IMG/VR virus record: IMGVR_UViG_3300025736_000063
Location: 1-41,531 of that record
Strand: one strand, 5' to 3'
Origin: a virus
Length of the DNA stretch: 41,531 bases
Every line of letters starts with the position of its first letter. The first letter of the stretch is position 1. Positions 2,827 to 41,531 of the stretch are shown here, one piece after another. Made by a program: the position numbers and the translations under genes. A model generated the notes under the pieces. The model was not told the DNA's origin. It did no database searches and saw nothing but the letters and a program-made list of their open reading frames with translations.

Positions 2827-2991
2827 ATGGACGATAAGCTTTGGTGTGAACTAAAATGTATTCGTAAAGACATTTCTGATTTGAGAGTAGATATCGCTAC
2901 TCTCAAAGTGAAATCAGGAATTTGGGGAATTATTGGTGGAAGCTTACCTGTTATATTTGCTTATATTGTGTACATCACAAAGCGATTATGA
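2827..2991 (+). CDS. Small membrane protein, holin candidate
   Basis: 54 residues, too short for most gene finders. The first 30 residues are polar and can form a short coiled coil (CIRKDISDLRVDIATLKVKS); residues 31-50 form one transmembrane helix (GIWGIIGGSLPVIFAYIVYI) followed by TKRL. The layout, charged N-terminus and single C-terminal helix with a basic tail, matches many small phage membrane proteins placed just before an endolysin, such as the haemolysin XhlA-type holin-associated family. The endolysin reading frame overlaps its 3' end. The ribosome site is weak (GGTGAT). Holin function is inferred from position and topology. Confidence 0.65.
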   Translation: MDDKLWCELKCIRKDISDLRVDIATLKVKSGIWGIIGGSLPVIFAYIVYITKRL

Positions 2992-3361
2992 TGTGTTAGA
3001 GTTCAATTTCACCTGTAAAAATACTGAAGATATTTACCATCTGCAAAAGGTAAAACCTCACCTACTAACTGTATTCTCAGATATAGTTGGTTGGTGTCAG
3101 GATAATGAACTCCCTCTAGTCATCACTAGAATTATTGATGAGAGAATCGAGGGAGTTTCTGTATCTGACACCCATGGTCAAGGAAGGGCCTTAGATCTTT
3201 CCGTTAGGGGTTGGACCCTTGTCGACATAAATAAATTCGTTATGCATTTCAATACTAAGTATGTTAAACTTGGAGCAATCAGCTACTCAGATGGATTGTC
3301 GCGAGTGGCAGTGTTCCACAACGGAACAGCTTGGCATCTACATATCCAAGTACGACCCTAA
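2933..3361 (+). CDS. Endolysin, M15 family zinc peptidase
   Basis: Peptidoglycan-cleaving D-Ala or L-Ala-D-Glu peptidase. The M15 signature is clear: S-D-T-H-G-Q-G-R-A-L-D (His81 and Asp88 as zinc ligands, numbered from the TTG start) and W-H-L-H-I-Q at 134-139, supplying the third ligand. At 142 residues it is a single catalytic domain with no obvious cell-wall binding domain. The start is uncertain: TTG 2933 has GGGGAA upstream and gives a hydrophobic N-terminus that could act as a signal-anchor; GTG 2993, just after the holin-candidate stop, would give 122 residues. Overlap with the upstream gene implies coupled translation. Confidence 0.85.
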   Translation: MVEAYLLYLLILCTSQSDYDVLEFNFTCKNTEDIYHLQKVKPHLLTVFSDIVGWCQDNELPLVITRIIDERIEGVSVSDTHGQGRALDLSVRGWTLVDINKFVMHFNTKYVKLGAISYSDGLSRVAVFHNGTAWHLHIQVRP

Positions 3362-3373
3362 CCGGAGAATAGT

Positions 3374-3586
3374 ATGACTGAAGTAACACCTGTAGTTGAA
3401 ACACCTGAAGTAGTTGTACCTGTTAAGAAATGGTATGAATTAATTGACATTAAAGAAATTATCAGATCTGTATATAATGGAGTAAGACCATTATTCGCAA
3501 AGAAGATTCTTGATTCTGCATCTAAGTGGGATGATGCTGCATTAGGTGCAGTAGACCTACTTGTAGAAAAATTCTGCGGTAAGTAA
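3374..3586 (+). CDS. Small lysis-cassette protein, unknown
   Basis: 70 residues with a good ribosome site (GGAGA). The N-terminus is rich in Val, Pro, Glu and Thr (VTPVVETPEVVVPVKK), then a helical part ending FCGK. No transmembrane segment is convincing. Its stop shares a base with the next start (TAATG at 3584-3588), so the two are translationally coupled. It lies between endolysin and membrane protein and is probably part of the lysis or late accessory set; no family recognised. Confidence 0.6.
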   Translation: MTEVTPVVETPEVVVPVKKWYELIDIKEIIRSVYNGVRPLFAKKILDSASKWDDAALGAVDLLVEKFCGK

Positions 3587-3765
3587 TGTTTCAAACAATT
3601 TTAGTAAAGGTGGTCACTTCTTTGGCCACCTCTTTACTTACATTTCTAGGTAAGTGGCTCATTAATTGGATAGGGACTCAACAAGATAACAGGGAGATTG
3701 ATGATGCACTCAATCAAGAAGATCGTAGGCGTGCTGCTAGTGATCTCGATATTGTGTTTAACTAG
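3586..3765 (+). CDS. Small membrane protein overlapping a lipoprotein gene (spanin or holin candidate)
   Basis: 59 residues starting at ATG 3586 in a TAATG overlap. Residues 3-29 form an amphipathic-to-hydrophobic helix (ILVKVVTSLATSLLTFLGKW), then a charged tail rich in Asp, Arg and Glu. Its last 65 bases overlap, in another frame, the start of the lipoprotein gene at 3701. A membrane protein gene partly containing a lipoprotein gene is the arrangement of Rz/Rz1 two-component spanins, but this protein is shorter than usual inner-membrane spanins, so a holin is the alternative. Confidence 0.55.
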   Translation: MFQTILVKVVTSLATSLLTFLGKWLINWIGTQQDNREIDDALNQEDRRRAASDLDIVFN

Positions 3766-4012
3766 TTGTGGGCGACAAGCTGTAGAGTTTGACCCTCAGT
3801 TCTATGTTGGAGACTATCTAGGTGTACAGGTAATGAATAGAAATGGAGAGGTAATATCTTGCCAAGAAGAGAAGTTTAATCAAATAGCATGTATGACTAA
3901 GGATAAAATAAAAGAACTTAGGAAGATTCTCAAGCATGCTACAGTCCCAAAAGAAAATGCAGCATTACTCAAGAAAGTTATTAAAGAATTAAAAGCTGTA
4001 TCTAAGAAATAG
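3701..4012 (+). CDS. Lipoprotein, outer-membrane spanin (Rz1-like) candidate
   Basis: About 103 residues. Basic start (MMHSIKK), hydrophobic core and a lipobox Leu-Thr-Ser-Cys with the lipidated Cys at residue 23 (from ATG 3701). AGGGAG at 3691-3696 precedes tandem ATGs at 3701 and 3704, so either may be used; a TTG at 3698 is too close. The mature part has two cysteines (ISCQEEKFNQIACM) and a Lys-rich helical C-terminus (KKVIKELKAVSKK). As a lipoprotein directly after endolysin and small membrane proteins, its likely role is outer-membrane disruption at lysis. It ends convergent with, and overlapping by 11 bases, the leftward operon. Confidence 0.7.
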   Translation: MMHSIKKIVGVLLVISILCLTSCGRQAVEFDPQFYVGDYLGVQVMNRNGEVISCQEEKFNQIACMTKDKIKELRKILKHATVPKENAALLKKVIKELKAVSKK

Positions 4013-15062: not shown

Positions 15063-15378
15063 TTTTCTCCCTTATGATTTCTGGAATCATTATATAAGTT
15101 TTATTTTCCTCATCATAAATGAGGTCAAATTTATTTCCCCTAATTAGCAAGGGTACAGTAGGAATTAAATCCTCCTCAAGTATGGCCTGGCCTAACCTTT
15201 CTTGCACTCTCTTTTTATGGTTCTCCTCATCAACACGATTGCATTTTTTGTAATATGCTTGAACTAATTCTTCTTGATCATAATCCTTACCTTCTCCACC
15301 ATTGCCTATGCAATTGTTTTCTAGGGCCTTCTGATACCACTCTAAGGACTGATTATTAGGTGCTGATTTAGTTACCAT
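15043..15378 (-). CDS. Hypothetical protein upstream of csrA
   Basis: 111 residues, charged. The C-terminal half has alternating hydrophobics (VPLLIRGNKFDLIYDEENKT) consistent with a small beta domain. No family recognised. Its 3' end contains the csrA ribosome site and overlaps csrA by 20 bases; its 5' end overlaps the pentapeptide gene by 11 bases. Confidence 0.6.
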   Translation of the reverse strand: MVTKSAPNNQSLEWYQKALENNCIGNGGEGKDYDQEELVQAYYKKCNRVDEENHKKRVQERLGQAILEEDLIPTVPLLIRGNKFDLIYDEENKTYIMIPEIIREKNVSITR

Positions 15379-16012
15379 TATGTATTCCTAAATCTTTGGC
15401 CCTATGTGATTTCTCAGCATAGGGTATTATTAAACTCATGATCTCACCATGTTCTAAATCTTCGCAATCTAATGCACAGATATGTGCCAGTAATTGTCTA
15501 ACTAGTTTTATATCTGTCTTTATATCTTTAGAACCACAATGAAGTGGAAAGCATGAATAATCAAGATTGGCACTCCTAATATCGGCATGCCTAAGATAGG
15601 CACTCCTAAGATTGGCACTCCTAATATCGGCACTCCTAAGATTGGCACTCCTAAGATTGGCACTCCTAAGATCGGCACTCCTAAGATTGGCATAGCTAAG
15701 ATCGGCACCACTAAGATCGGCACCACTAAGATTGGCACTCCAAAGATTGGCATAGCTAAGATCGGCACCACTAAGATTGGCATGCCTAAGATAGGCATAG
15801 CTAAGATCGGCACCACTAAGATTGGCACCACTAAGATCGGCACCACTAAGATCGGCACCACTAAGATCGGCATGCCTAAGATAGGCACTCCTAAGATTGG
15901 CACTCCTAAGATCGGCACCACTGAGATTGGCTCTTTCACCATCTACATCATCTTTTAACCATAATTTATGTTTTCTAAGTATCTCTTCTAGTTTAATTTC
16001 CCCCATCATCAT
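15368..16012 (-). CDS. Pentapeptide-repeat protein
   Basis: 214 residues. The N-terminal cap E-I-L-R-K-H-K-L-W-L is the usual lead-in of this family. About 25 pentapeptides of A-(N/D)-L-x-x type follow (residues 28-152), forming a right-handed quadrilateral beta helix, then a C-terminal helical cap of about 60 residues with cysteines. Some family members (MfpA, Qnr) mimic DNA and block gyrase, but most phage examples have no known role. An AGGAG site precedes a run of three ATGs, any of which may be the start. The DNA repeat also stays open in other frames, which are not genes. Confidence 0.9.
   Translation of the reverse strand: MMMGEIKLEEILRKHKLWLKDDVDGERANLSGADLRSANLRSAYLRHADLSGADLSGADLSGANLSGADLSYAYLRHANLSGADLSYANLWSANLSGADLSGADLSYANLRSADLRSANLRSANLRSADIRSANLRSAYLRHADIRSANLDYSCFPLHCGSKDIKTDIKLVRQLLAHICALDCEDLEHGEIMSLIIPYAEKSHRAKDLGIHNGN
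15562..15935. repeat. About 25 tandem copies of a 15-bp unit
   Basis: Plus-strand unit AAGAT(T/C)GGCA(C/T)(C/T)(C/A)CT with limited variants, in phase with codons, encoding Ala-Asx-Leu-x-x on the minus strand. Variant units recur in blocks (for example three CACTCCT units, runs of CACCACT), the pattern left by recent unit duplication and gene conversion. Confidence 0.9.
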
Positions 16013-16082: not shown

Positions 16083-16622
16083 TTATTTATCCCCCTCTAA
16101 TAAGTTAGCAACATAGTTTAAAATCTTTTCTTGTGTCTCTTTTCTAGCATTAGTAGCAGCATTAGTAGCAGCATCAACAGCATCAACAGCAGCAGCAGCA
16201 ACAGCAGCATTAGTAGCATAAGCAGAAGAAGCAGCATTAGTAGCATAAGCAGAAGAAGCAGCAGCAGCATGAGTAGCATAAGCAGCATTAGCAGCAGCCC
16301 GCTTTTTTTGAAGTGTTGCAATGTCTATCTTTCCATCTGAATAATCTTTCACCGCTTGGATACAATCTCTAACTCTCATATCATTTGGATATTCCTTTTC
16401 AAAGAGAGGTAAAACTACCTCAGCGGAAAACACAGCTATTTTCACGGCCTGTTTTTGATCTATCAGTTTAGGGAATAACCATCTGGCCCACTCAGATCTA
16501 TGGGTATTTAATTGTAATAATATCTCTCTGATATTTTCTGACTTGATGTTTTTTCGGTACCAAAATAAACCCTCTACACAGGGGTCAAGTTTCTCTAAGT
16601 CTTTCAATGTAAATTTTTCCAT
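16083..16622 (-). CDS. Imm-5-like alanine-rich protein
   Basis: 179 residues. The stretch R-W-L-F-P-K-L, Q-A-V-K-I-A-V-F-S-A-E, V-L-P-L-F-E-K and P-N-D-M-R-V-R-D-C-I is the signature of the 'putative immunity protein' (Imm-5-like) family that occurs in bacteria and many phages. It is followed by a low-complexity run of Ala, Tyr, Thr, Ser and Asn (residues 109-160), encoded by GCA/GCT-rich triplet repeats likely to vary by slippage, and a helical end. No activity is established for phage members; inhibition of a host or rival factor is a guess. Confidence 0.7.
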   Translation of the reverse strand: MEKFTLKDLEKLDPCVEGLFWYRKNIKSENIREILLQLNTHRSEWARWLFPKLIDQKQAVKIAVFSAEVVLPLFEKEYPNDMRVRDCIQAVKDYSDGKIDIATLQKKRAAANAAYATHAAAASSAYATNAASSAYATNAAVAAAAVDAVDAATNAATNARKETQEKILNYVANLLEGDK

Positions 16623-17955: not shown

Positions 17956-17983
17956 CTTTAAGTATTATTTATTTAAGTATTAG

Positions 17984-18033
17984 CTTACCCACGGTGGAAT
18001 GAAATTAGGTGTTATCTTACCCACGGTGGAATG
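17984..18033. repeat. Two 18-bp direct repeats (iteron- or operator-like)
   Basis: CTTACCCACGGTGGAATG at 17984-18001 and 18016-18033, 32 bp apart start to start (about three helical turns, so on the same face). Each has a palindromic core CCAC-G-GTGG. Suited to a repressor or initiator dimer. Confidence 0.8.
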
Positions 18034-18255
18034 TGATTTAAAAATATCCAGACGGGATTTTACCCCCCCCTCTTACTGTGTTAGGACAACCATACATTCT
18101 TGTTTAAGCACAGTGAGTCATTTAGCCCCCTTAGAGGGTAAGAGTAATTCACTCCTTCCTTTCTTCTTACGAATAAATGTGATTTGATTTGCTATAGATC
18201 TCGATTGACCTACGAATAAAGCTTAAACGATATATCATTATAGTGCAAGCTTTAT

Positions 18256-19291: not shown

Positions 19292-19580
19292 ATATAACTC
19301 TCCAATTACTAACAACTAAGCGTATAGTTGTAGCAACACCATCAATACACTAACAACTCAATGATAGTAAGGGCATAGAGCTACTAGGTAGGTAGCAGTA
19401 AACGTTATGGTGTAGGCTAAGTAGTCGATATCATTGAACTCGATTGTATCCTTATAGTGGGTTTTTTTGAACACTTGTTTTTAAGAAATTGTGTGAGAAG
19501 TCGATACCCCCAATTTCAGTTCCGTATTCATCAACGCTACCAATCTCCAAACATTTCTGAAATATGTTTACCTTGCACTG

Positions 19581-19625
19581 CATTACATTACATTACATTA
19601 CATTACATTACATTACATTACATTA
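19581..19625. repeat. (CATTA)9 pentanucleotide array
   Basis: Nine perfect CATTA units (TAATG on the minus strand), 45 bp, followed by CATAT. No flanking drift is visible, so the array is young or kept uniform. It is 30 bases beyond the 3' end of the Cro-like gene. Confidence 0.95.
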
Positions 19626-19633
19626 CATATGGA

Positions 19634-37034: not shown

Positions 37035-38588
37035 ATGACAGTTTCAAATGATACAGTTAAAGAATCATGGCCGGGAAATGGTACAAAGACGGATTACTTA
37101 ATACCTTTTGATTTTACATCTGAAAGTGTTATAGCTGTTTATCTTATAGAAAATGATGTAGAGACAAAACAGACTATAACTACAAATTATACCTTATCTG
37201 GTGGACCTCCAGTAACAACAGTGGATATGAATGTAGCTCCAACAGTAGATCAAGTTATAAAACTAATTAGAGAAACTCCTAAAAAACAAGCTGCTGAATA
37301 TAGCGGAACTACTTTCCCTGCCGCATCCGTAGAAGAGAATATGGATAACATAGTAAGACAGGTACAGGAAATAGGAAATAGTAACTCGGCCTCTATAGAT
37401 CTAGCAATTGGCTCTTCTTTAAGTGACATAAAGCTTCCAGTAGAGGTAGCAAATAAATTCCTTAAATGGAATGATGATGCAACAGATTTAGAAAATACTG
37501 AAGCAATCCCTCCTTGGAGACCTCAGAGTAGAACATATAATGGTGATGATACAGAGACAGAATTTCTAATCCCTTTCCTATTTACGAGCGAATCTGATAT
37601 AGCTGTTTATCTTGTTGAGGGTGGAGTAGAAACTCTACAAACTGTAACTGCGGATTACACTTTAACAACAGGATCTCCTGCAACAATAGTGGATATGAAC
37701 TCAGCACCTACAGTAGATCAAGATGTTAAGATAAGGAAAATCTCTTCGTTATCTACGGATTATAAAGTAGGTAACTTAGTGGTTCAAGGCGGAGTTATTT
37801 ACAGGTGTTTGACTTCTCACGCTTCTGCAATTTTCGCAAATGAAAAAGCATATTGGGAAGGAATTTCAGGGGCAGTAGGAGCTACTGGACCGACAGGTGA
37901 GAAAGGCAATAAGGGAGATGATGGTCCAACAGGTCCTACAGGAGCAGCAGGATCTAACGGTTCGGCAGGAGCAGCAGGAATCTTTTCTGCAATAGCTTCC
38001 CAAGCAGAAGCTCAAGCAGGAACAGATAATACAAAAGGTATGACTCCTCTAAGGACTAAAGAAGCTATAAGCTCTCAAGTCCCTAATTACTCGTCAACTA
38101 TTGCAGCATTACAAGCTAAGGATACAAATCAAGACATAGCAATAGCGGCGTTAGCTGATAGAGTCTCAGTAACAGAAACTTTAATAACAACTTCTAAATA
38201 TACTGGATCTCAAAACTTATTAAACAATCAAGCAGTAGCTCAACCACTATTAGGAGTAGCAGGTCCTAATGGAAAGAATACAGCTCTAACAGTAGATGCT
38301 GATGGAACTACTCACGTTGAGGTAACATTAGAAATATTTAGAAAAGATGATGCAGAGGAGAGAGTAATCTCAATAGAGTTATTACTTCTTTATGTTGGAA
38401 CAACTTGGTATCTTGGAAGAAAGGCGACAACTAAACTTGTCGGAGATTTTGACGGATTAACTCTCTCATTAGCTCAAGTAGGAAATGCTGCAACAGTTCA
38501 ATACGTTTCTGACAATATGTCAGGTGGTAACTATGATGCAGATAGTAGAATTAAATGGGTTGGAAACGAAATATCTATAGGAGTATAG
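37035..38588 (+). CDS. Tail fibre / adaptor with duplicated T7-tail-like N-terminus and collagen-like repeat
   Basis: 517 residues. The T7 fibre-type attachment domain occurs twice: residues 11-80 (Y-L-I-P-F-D-F-T-S-E-S...M-N-V-A-P-T-V-D-Q) and 167-236 (F-L-I-P-F-L-F-T-S-E-S...M-N-S-A-P-T-V-D-Q). Then a carbohydrate-binding-like segment (245-277: Y-K-V-G-N-L-V-V-Q...Y-R-C-L-T), 11 collagen-like G-x-y triplets (282-315) and a helical plus beta C-terminus. The first copy should dock to the gp11/gp12 tail; the second could be an adaptor site for the next fibre gene. One base separates its stop from the fibre gene at 38590. Confidence 0.85.
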   Translation: MTVSNDTVKESWPGNGTKTDYLIPFDFTSESVIAVYLIENDVETKQTITTNYTLSGGPPVTTVDMNVAPTVDQVIKLIRETPKKQAAEYSGTTFPAASVEENMDNIVRQVQEIGNSNSASIDLAIGSSLSDIKLPVEVANKFLKWNDDATDLENTEAIPPWRPQSRTYNGDDTETEFLIPFLFTSESDIAVYLVEGGVETLQTVTADYTLTTGSPATIVDMNSAPTVDQDVKIRKISSLSTDYKVGNLVVQGGVIYRCLTSHASAIFANEKAYWEGISGAVGATGPTGEKGNKGDDGPTGPTGAAGSNGSAGAAGIFSAIASQAEAQAGTDNTKGMTPLRTKEAISSQVPNYSSTIAALQAKDTNQDIAIAALADRVSVTETLITTSKYTGSQNLLNNQAVAQPLLGVAGPNGKNTALTVDADGTTHVEVTLEIFRKDDAEERVISIELLLLYVGTTWYLGRKATTKLVGDFDGLTLSLAQVGNAATVQYVSDNMSGGNYDADSRIKWVGNEISIGV

Positions 38589-38589
38589 G

Positions 38590-41531
38590 ATGAAGAGTTT
38601 ATTTTTAATATGGTTTATGTTGCTGTCTTTAAGTGCTAGGGCACAACAGGAAGTAAATTATCCTGTACTCTCAGCAGGAGATAGGAACACTATAACAGCT
38701 AGTTCGGCCTTTACTGTATTCAGTACAACTAAAGGGTCTCAACCTTGCCCAACTATGACCACTGTTCAGAAAGATGCGATAGTAGGTTTAGAAGTAGGGC
38801 TTTGCGTTTACGACTCTGACTTGTCAGCGACATATACCTATAGTGGTTTGGCTTGGGTAGCGGCAGGAGGGACAGACTTAACAACTATAACTGCTAGTGT
38901 CCAACAAAATACAGACGACATTGCTACTTTAGTTTTAGACGATCTAGTCGATGTAGTTCTAACTTCAACAGTAACTAAGAGTTTATTGAGATTTGACGGG
39001 ACAGATTGGAAAAACCTATATGATGTAGATGACACTAATGGCTTTCCAAACACAACTGACACAGCTTTATCTTTTGTAGACGGTACAAGAACTTTTACTG
39101 TGACTCCAACAGGAGCTAGTTTTAAAGTTTATGATGAAGGGAATGAATATGTAATCTCTGCTCCTGACGATGTTACTATAACAGACGTAGAGGGGCTTCA
39201 CGTAATCTACTATGATGCAGGAGTTCTAACTACAGTAGCTAATCCTAGTAGTGGTCAAATTGATACTGTCATAAGGACAAAAGCAATTGTTGCTTATATT
39301 TATTGGAATGCTACAGACAATATACATAGTTATTTCGCAGAAGAAAGACACGGAATATCTATGTCTCCTGCCACTCATGCCAATGGCCATTTCACTAGAG
39401 GATTTTTATATCTTAATGGTTTAGGACTTGGAAATTTTGATATAAATGGATCAGGAAATGACTTAACAGCGGTTCAATTTAGTACCTCTACAGGTATGGC
39501 GGTAGATGAAGATTTAACGACAAGTTATGTAGGGGCAGCTTCTACAGTAGGTCTTCCGGTTTACTACTTGGATGGATCAGCTACCATGAGAAGGGCTTTC
39601 AATGCCGGATATTCCGCTGTATCTGATAGACACTTAGGTTTAGGAACTGACGATGACATTCTTTATAATCTGAACACAGCAGGCGTTTGGTCACAAGTTG
39701 TAGTTCCTAGTAATGATTATGTGTTATATCATGTAGCAGTTTTGAACGGTTATGATGGTACAGACAAGCAAATAACTATCATGGGTCAAGAAGTCTATAC
39801 AACTATATCTAAAGCTAGAGCAGGGGCAACAACAGAGCTTGCTAATATAAAAACATTATTCTTGGTAGAAGAGATAGGATTTATAGGGACAGTAATTTAC
39901 CAAGCGAGATCAACTTACAGTAACCTTTTAGGCGCTAGATTAAGAAGTACAGATGAAGGTGATGATTATGTTGATTGGAGAACCACTGAGCAATCGACAG
40001 GTTCTCCTGCCTCTTCACACAATAGTTTAACTGATCTACAGCTCTCCAATACAGGAGTTGTTTGGGGTCACATAAGTGATCTTGTTCAGAATATCTTTGG
40101 CCTTAAGACTTTTAATGATGGAGTTGTAGTTACAGGTACAGCGACAGCAGATTTCTTTGTAGGAGATGGTTCTGGGTTAACAGGTCTTCCTGCTTCTGCA
40201 TCAACACTTGCAGATTTAACAGATGTGCATATTCCTTCTCCTGCATTAAATGAAGTCTTGACTTACACTGGAGCACAATGGCAATCATCTCTTCCGGTTC
40301 CTGCATCAGAGGGAGATTTAACTAGTTTAAATACAGGAATAAATATCAATGGCGGAACAAACGCCACTAATGCCGCCGCTACAATAGAACTAAATCCTGC
40401 CAGTTATACTGCGACAGGAGGTTTATCTGGGACTCAGTATGGAGAGTTTGCCTCAAAAGATATTGAAAGATTTGGATATGCCAATGCAGAGAATAACAGT
40501 TTTACTGGTTGGGATGTTTCCGAAATAAGTGCTGCAACTCTTATTCTTAATACAATTGATCCTTTGAATGGCGTTTATGATTATAGATTAAATAGTTTAA
40601 CAGGTGCAGATGATGAAAAGTTTTGTTCTCCTGTAATGACCGTTCCTCCAAAATCAAGAGGCTCGTTGATAGGTATTAAGTTTGCTTATAAATACACAGG
40701 AGATACTGACGACATTAATACCTGGATGGAAGATGTTACCAATACAGCTACACTCGGTGCAACTTCCTTAACAGCAGGCTCGGCCAAGAGAGCATTAATA
40801 ACAGGATTTACAAAAGAGTCAACAGCACAAGTTAAATTTTGTGCCGAAATAAAAGTAGTAAATAACGGAAAGTTTTTATATTTAGATGATATTGAGTTTA
40901 CTGGTAATCCATTGGAAGAGATTCAGATATTTGAAGCAAGTGATTGGGAAGAATTTGGAGCAACTACAATTACTGGGGAGTCAAGCAATCCAACAAAGGG
41001 GACAATGGCGACTGATAAAATGTTTTGTCGTCAAATAGGCGACTCAATGGAAGTAAGGGTCGTGTATGAAATGACAGGAGCAGGCTCAGATGGTTCCGGT
41101 GATTACATGATTGAAATACCAACTACATGTAATGGTAAATCAGGATTGACTATCGATACAGCAAAAGTGGGAACAATAACAGGTATAGCAGATGATATAA
41201 GAGGTCCAGTTGTAGGAAGTACACACTTTACCACACAAACTGCTGAAAATACATATTCCAGCACAATCGGTTCGATAGTAATTAAAGATTCAACTAGAAT
41301 AAAACTTCTGTTGGATTCTTCCGAATCTCTTAAACAACTTTATTGGAGTAGTACTGCATTTAATTATACCACACCTATCTATATCTATGCTTACTACACA
41401 ATTCCAATAACAGGATGGAAAGCAACCTCAGATGCAGTTGTTCATACTGGGGACTTAGGGTTTTATAGTTTTCACGGTTCAGATATAACTGGAAATGCTA
41501 GTAATGGAAATTATGTACCAAGAATAACTAC
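38590..41531 (+). CDS. Tail fibre with Sec signal peptide, 3' truncated by window edge (allele B)
   Basis: Open from ATG 38590 to the window end without a stop (980 codons). The N-terminus MKSLFLIWFMLLSLSARAQQ has a Lys, hydrophobic core and Ala-Arg-Ala, predicting a cut after residue 18. The body is typical fibre: L-D-D-L-V-D-V, F-V-G-D-G-S-G-L-T-G-L, L-A-D-L-T-D-V and long Thr/Ser/Gly beta regions. From 40701 it is the same sequence as position 1, has a different segment at 40917-41419, and returns to identity at 41420. Continued into 778-1621 it makes a 1261-residue fibre. Confidence 0.88.
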   Translation, partial: MKSLFLIWFMLLSLSARAQQEVNYPVLSAGDRNTITASSAFTVFSTTKGSQPCPTMTTVQKDAIVGLEVGLCVYDSDLSATYTYSGLAWVAAGGTDLTTITASVQQNTDDIATLVLDDLVDVVLTSTVTKSLLRFDGTDWKNLYDVDDTNGFPNTTDTALSFVDGTRTFTVTPTGASFKVYDEGNEYVISAPDDVTITDVEGLHVIYYDAGVLTTVANPSSGQIDTVIRTKAIVAYIYWNATDNIHSYFAEERHGISMSPATHANGHFTRGFLYLNGLGLGNFDINGSGNDLTAVQFSTSTGMAVDEDLTTSYVGAASTVGLPVYYLDGSATMRRAFNAGYSAVSDRHLGLGTDDDILYNLNTAGVWSQVVVPSNDYVLYHVAVLNGYDGTDKQITIMGQEVYTTISKARAGATTELANIKTLFLVEEIGFIGTVIYQARSTYSNLLGARLRSTDEGDDYVDWRTTEQSTGSPASSHNSLTDLQLSNTGVVWGHISDLVQNIFGLKTFNDGVVVTGTATADFFVGDGSGLTGLPASASTLADLTDVHIPSPALNEVLTYTGAQWQSSLPVPASEGDLTSLNTGININGGTNATNAAATIELNPASYTATGGLSGTQYGEFASKDIERFGYANAENNSFTGWDVSEISAATLILNTIDPLNGVYDYRLNSLTGADDEKFCSPVMTVPPKSRGSLIGIKFAYKYTGDTDDINTWMEDVTNTATLGATSLTAGSAKRALITGFTKESTAQVKFCAEIKVVNNGKFLYLDDIEFTGNPLEEIQIFEASDWEEFGATTITGESSNPTKGTMATDKMFCRQIGDSMEVRVVYEMTGAGSDGSGDYMIEIPTTCNGKSGLTIDTAKVGTITGIADDIRGPVVGSTHFTTQTAENTYSSTIGSIVIKDSTRIKLLLDSSESLKQLYWSSTAFNYTTPIYIYAYYTIPITGWKATSDAVVHTGDLGFYSFHGSDITGNASNGNYVPRIT
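40701..41531 (+). repeat. Terminal direct overlap with positions 1-777, mosaic
   Basis: 40701-40916 equals 1-216 with four differences (at 124, 190, 196, 202 of the first copy, all third codon positions). 41420-41531 equals 666-777 exactly. Between them 503 bases here and 449 there do not align. Lengths differ by 54 (18 codons), so the frame is kept in both. Confidence 0.95.

Follow-up and report, generated by a model that had tools for sequence, protein, structure and literature searches.

Two alleles of a modular and putatively exported fibre gene at the ends of a T7-like podovirus contig

The window analysed here, a stretch of 41,531 bp that makes up a complete IMG/VR record and is classed there as 'linear', begins and ends within one and the same fibre gene, which raises the question of how a single gene comes to be entered twice and of what its product does. 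The late region of the window encodes a terminase, a portal, a capsid, tail tubes, and internal virion proteins, as in a T7-like podovirus. The HTVC010P-like podoviruses, of which the phage is only a distant relative (37.7% identity in the MCP and 36% in the portal), share its capsid, portal, and tail-tube genes, and capsid and portal are also distantly related to those of 41-kb phages with circular genomes from Manatee Spring. The explanation that we favour, with a probability of about 0.68, is that the two ends hold two alleles generated by homologous recombination, that the fibre is exported by the Sec pathway, and that the exchange of its head alters what it binds.

The gene, like its neighbours described below, lies on the + strand. 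Its N-terminal two thirds, common to both alleles, occupy 38590–40700, and a carbohydrate-binding-like domain (leftCBM; 40450–40914) directly precedes a variable slot. The remainder of the C-terminus, at 778–1621, comprises a C1q-like domain (tipA) and a TNF-like end domain (tipB, about 1169–1618). An earlier sequence-only reading had proposed that the window ends re-enter this gene with conserved flanks around unrelated cores, and the comparison of flanks and cores bears this out. The left flank, which encodes the end of the carbohydrate-binding-like domain, is present at 1–216, joined to core 1, and at 40701–40916, joined to core 2, with 98% identity between the copies (E 3.6e-105), far beyond chance. 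Just four mismatches separate them (at 124, 190, 196, and 202), all of which are synonymous third-position changes and three of which fall in the final 27 bases before the core; because the differences are synonymous only, two real coding lineages appear likely, rather than sequencing error. The right flank, at 666–777 beside core 1 and at 41420–41531 beside core 2, where it is cut by the contig end, is 100% identical over the 112 bp up to that end (E 2.7e-54). Between the flanks lie core 1 (217–665; 449 bp) and core 2 (40917–41419; 503 bp), which share no DNA similarity and whose proteins align only over the first ~32 residues (GNPLE..TITG..SS, 14/32 identical). Each core joins 38590–40700 to 778–1621 in one open frame, of 1243 or 1261 residues, the same lengths that had been put forward from the sequence. 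The GC content and codon usage of both cores are within the range of the late genes, and no second copy of either core is found elsewhere in the window.

The identity of the cores was addressed with family profiles and with AlphaFold models built from family alignments, as monomers only. Core 1 scores 19.4 bits against the profile of the tipA family, where 2000 shuffles reach 9.3 at most, and the score is 18.8 bits when the window's own row is removed from the profile. Its model (pLDDT 79) places it among the C1q/TNF trimers, with Foldseek E-values down to 3e-6 (8e-6 for the C1q domain of Cbln1). On this profile match and the predicted jelly-roll fold, core 1 is a diverged C1q/TNF-like domain and a diverged member of the tipA family. 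The model of core 2 (pLDDT 83) comes nearest to the heads of phage tailspikes, reovirus sigma1, and the adenovirus knob, at weak E-values of 3e-3 and above, and also resembles many unnamed phage proteins; an alignment-based scan recovered relatives in eight unrelated viral contigs. Core 2 is thus a member of a widespread phage-fibre family, designated 'GDSMEV', with a tailspike/knob-like head. Kinship of core 1 with core 2 was considered and ruled out, the score being 1.0 bit where shuffles reach up to 12.7. Two distinct domain families occupy the one slot, and the suggestion that the core is a swappable cassette can be made more precise, in that a complete domain is exchanged at domain borders between flanks common to both alleles. 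What the window adds to known head swaps is that both alleles can be read with exact borders and that each swapped domain can be assigned to a family. Single-sequence scans of IMG/VR with the tip, the left flank, the neighbouring internal virion protein, and core 2 gave no match, nor did a scan of genome_contigs with a fibre module, though close records may lie outside what these scans cover; a search of phage records gave a single weak match and a PDB sequence search nothing useful. In a Bdellovibrionota genome, a pilin-like protein (GFSLASILVGAAMLGFLAVGF; L103 757–1980; G369:C166) has a relative of core 2 as its C-terminal domain, so that this head is carried on a non-fibre scaffold too.

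Domain orders in other phages were obtained by profile searches over the loci returned by the core-2 scan and by the scan with tipA, the domain after the slot, which gave 35 loci. The order of allele 2 recurs in both of its parts: core 2 is followed by C1q-like domains in five loci (L141, L145, L174, L175, and L183) and preceded by the carbohydrate-binding-like domain in five others (L142, L143, L144, L147, and L148). The order of allele 1, in which the carbohydrate-binding-like domain is followed by two C1q domains and a TNF-like tip, recurs in L155. Since each order is found in unrelated phages, neither arm resembles a random chimera. The proposal that one arm is an assembly chimera carrying a fibre fragment from another phage draws on the position of the contig ends within a variable gene; it is very unlikely, given that both joins are in frame and at domain borders, that both domain orders recur, that codon usage and GC match the genome, and that the flank differences are synonymous only.

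The alleles are best read as coming from a population that carries both in a single type of genome, circular or terminally redundant and ~40.7 kb long, with an assembly bubble across the contig ends. The earlier sequence-only reading had already preferred a mixed population whose genome is circular or circularly permuted, and this holds up in that closing the contig on either allele gives a circle of 40,700 or 40,754 bp, close to the 41.2–41.7 kb of related phages. A single domain exchange accounts for all observations on the alleles, and the circle closes at the expected size. In such a podovirus population, the tailspike/knob-like head would have taken the place of the complete C1q/TNF-like head through homologous recombination in the conserved flanks, and the assembler would have walked the circle once, using one allele at each end. 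The alleles themselves, the identities of their domains, the recurring orders, and the synonymous flank differences are observed directly; the mixed population and the recombination are inferred. The identical stretches at the contig ends, of 123 and 112 bp, do not correspond to one single k-mer length, and the k-mer signature of an assembly bubble was dropped as an argument because the two disagree.

The principal competitor to a two-allele population is a pair of tandem paralogous fibre genes in one genome, with the contig breaking inside the repeated stretches, in which case about 3 kb would be missing between the ends (the rest of the tip of copy A and the N-terminal part of copy B). Tandem genes of the kind do exist, both as signal-peptide fibres (L201 and L235) and as core-2 genes (L143, L146, and L147), and because assembly breaks at exact repeats, near-identical tandem copies may be under-represented in contigs. 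The copies in L201 and L235, however, have no detectable DNA similarity to each other, whereas the flanks here are 98–100% identical around unrelated cores, and internal repeats of at least 100 bp at 90% identity or more occur in only 3/123 fibre loci, none of them above 93%. We regard a tandem pair as improbable. Still harder to credit is a single clone that switches cassettes by program, through a diversity-generating retroelement or an element of the invertible or shufflon-like type. Such a system would indeed present a variable core between conserved borders, but the window holds no second core copy, no inverted repeats at the borders, and no silent copies in cis, and no recombinase, invertase, integrase, or reverse transcriptase was found among the ORFs scanned; the same screen for recombination enzymes identified a DNA polymerase, a primase, a helicase, and an exonuclease. 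Retroelements, moreover, alter single bases and not whole domains.

Phage populations are known to vary recognition by swapping domains, and the allele pair belongs to this phenomenon, with precedents in HTVC010P-like, cryoconite, and T-even phages. In metaviromic islands, read recruitment has revealed that HTVC010P-like phages vary, at the population level, in the C1q receptor-binding genes that adjoin their tail fibre (Mizuno et al., 2014; PMC3909814). The window shares with these islands a near-identical population with a conserved N-terminus and a variable head: conserved flanks surround a variable recognition domain in a gene that is otherwise near-identical, and this gene, with its C1q-type head, adjoins the tail fibre. 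The difference is that variability in the islands is seen as under-recruitment of reads, whereas the window presents two full alleles, of different domain families, in one contig and with a signal peptide. Cryoconite phages possess flexible gene modules in which such genes are exchanged between near-identical genomes, although these are whole-gene variants at 54–69% nucleotide identity and not replacements of a single domain by one of an unrelated family (Bellas et al., 2020; PMC7468147). In T-even phages, as far as they are treated in the same paper, distal fibre adhesins are likewise swapped by recombination between conserved borders (Tetart et al., 1998, cited in PMC7468147), in another fibre family and phage group. 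The allelic head swap is therefore familiar from the metaviromic islands; the signal peptide of the fibre is unusual. That the swapped gene appears to be exported is, in our ranking, more important than the allele pair itself.

The cytoplasm is where phage tail parts are normally assembled; ordinary virion fibres lack a Sec-type signal peptide, and the T-even fibre is not known to have one. Among 13 predicted proteins of the HTVC010P late region, including the neighbours of the tail fibre, no obvious signal peptide could be seen by eye. The fibre gene of the window starts one base past the stop of a T7-like tail fibre gene (37035–38588) that carries the PF03906 N-terminal domain and collagen repeats, a domain that is absent from the allele-bearing gene. 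The allele-bearing fibre is not a T7-type tail fibre, the T7-type fibre being the product of the upstream gene. At its start (38590–38643) is a predicted Sec signal peptide, MKSLFLIWFMLLSLSARA, followed at 38686–38895 by a module, fibN1 (STTKG..MTT.Q.DAI), with a Cys53/Cys72 pair. Signal peptides were called with a home-made heuristic rule, not with SignalP. In the window this rule selects the fibre gene and two genes downstream of it (1630–2283 and 2305–2811), as well as a lipoprotein-like signal in the small predicted lipoprotein gene at 3698–4012, and no other ORF. Homologues of the gene at 2305 lie downstream of signal-peptide fibres in L186, L207, and L256.

The same arrangement is seen more widely. 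A scan with fibN1, after which 80 viral loci were kept, found signal peptides in 25/77 module-bearing ORFs with a visible start, and in the loci of the phage's relatives 0/239 ORFs of 400 aa or more have one; two loci with confusing ORFs, L256 (high GC) and L184 (a cut 5' end), were read separately. In 8/8 distinct contigs with a strong homologue of the window's tail fibre, the gene that follows this homologue starts within 30 bp and encodes a signal-peptide fibre of 694–1290 residues, so that eight other viral contigs repeat the order of T7-like tail fibre and signal-peptide modular fibre, a count that is not bias-free since these contigs were found via a module inside the fibre and are also mutually related. 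Further signal-peptide genes and a lipoprotein often follow, as in the window. Signal-peptide fibres are rich in cysteine, with a median of 1.0 per 100 residues against 0.28 in other fibres (~four times; P 3e-5), and the Cys pair of the N-terminal module is present in 9/22 signal-peptide copies against 0/49 others, the module copies being related by descent, so that P values overstate their independence. The enrichment and the pair agree with folding in an oxidising compartment. Signal peptide, synteny, and cysteine pattern together make export of the fibre by Sec likely, and the predicted export signal suggests that the fibre works outside the cytoplasm of the infected cell.

The hydrophobic N-terminus may instead be an uncleaved peptide that docks the fibre onto a T7-like adaptor fibre, which would make the product an ordinary virion receptor-binding protein and would be compatible with the explanation given for the alleles. 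The fibre gene does directly follow the T7-like tail fibre, C1q receptor-binding genes adjoin the tail fibre in HTVC010P-like phages (PMC3909814), and other phages carry the same distal modules on fibres that lack a signal peptide. Docking would not be expected from the eight contigs, where a signal-like layout of charged, hydrophobic, and small residues is maintained while the N-terminal sequences are unrelated, nor from the downstream genes, likewise signal-peptide proteins, and the Cys pair is exclusive to signal-peptide fibres; we hold docking to be possible, though rather doubtful. If export by Sec is correct, disulfides would form in the periplasm and a trimeric fibre would be presented outside the cytoplasm, where it would either act on the infected cell's surface or, after periplasmic maturation, join virions at lysis. 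The exchange of the head, which is directly visible in the two alleles, would then alter what the fibre binds, putatively a surface sugar or protein, and may alter the host range, as the earlier reading had proposed.

The closest parallel in build is among bacterial proteins. The mosaic adhesive trimer (MAT) proteins of Bdellovibrio have a signal peptide, phage-fibre-like modules, and swapped C-terminal heads that include TNF/C1q-like folds, and an S74 chaperone domain is present in 13/21 members (PMC10769870). The window fibre resembles them in its modular, tip-swapping build and, by the heuristic predictor, in an N-terminal signal peptide and secretion, and differs in being phage-encoded. 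The S74 domain is absent from it, and sequence comparison did not find the beta-rich domain of ~130 aa that follows the signal peptide in MAT proteins. Surface proteins of Bdellovibrionota contain the fibN1 and core-2 modules too, and the distal fibre modules are found in secreted Bdellovibrionota proteins (L134 and L135); the N-terminus of the window fibre aligns only to internal fibN1 modules of Bdellovibrionota proteins and not to the N-terminal domain of L111. A Bdellovibrionota host was considered and is no more than possible, in that the sharing of modules is real, yet this was the sole phylum covered and the 369 genomes searched hold no close prophage. On a Bdellovibrionota contig of 197 kb (L268; G093:C6:1-20000), a portal homologue (30% identity, E 4e-63) lies at the edge and is possibly the remnant of a distant T7-like prophage.

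Taken more broadly, a widespread group of T7-like podoviruses may have, encoded directly after the tail fibre, a modular fibre that is exported by Sec, stabilised by disulfides, and active outside the cytoplasm, either at the infected-cell surface or, once matured in the periplasm, as an addition to the virion at lysis; its heads would be exchanged as whole domains within the population and shared with secreted bacterial proteins. We consider the case for such a group to be evenly balanced. A described class of Sec-exported phage fibres was not found among the open-access papers searched. If the proposal is true, exported fibres conserved as a class next to the tail genes would mean either that virions mature by a new route or that the infected cell displays adhesins made by the phage.

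Several further features of these genomes may be recorded. In L201 (5911–11112) and L235 (1448–8532), two or more signal-peptide fibres stand in tandem after the tail fibre. The tail fibre gene of the window contains a 70%-identical duplication within its N-terminal half (37078–37266 and 37546–37734). The small gene at 2933 and the lipoprotein gene at 3698 (window 2933–4012) have neighbouring homologues in L213 (8767–9636; E 5e-23 and 1e-10), and may form a lysis or spanin-like pair. The gene at 16086–16622 matches PF21805, a family of Imm5-like immunity proteins (E 1.2e-9), and a pentapeptide-repeat protein (PF00805, E 1.8e-53) with 15-base repeats is encoded at 15371–16012. A run of TTACA pentanucleotide repeats is found at 19568–19632, and two 32-base direct repeats with the palindrome CCCACGGTGG lie at 17973–18036, between the divergent early and late modules, where they may serve as an operator.
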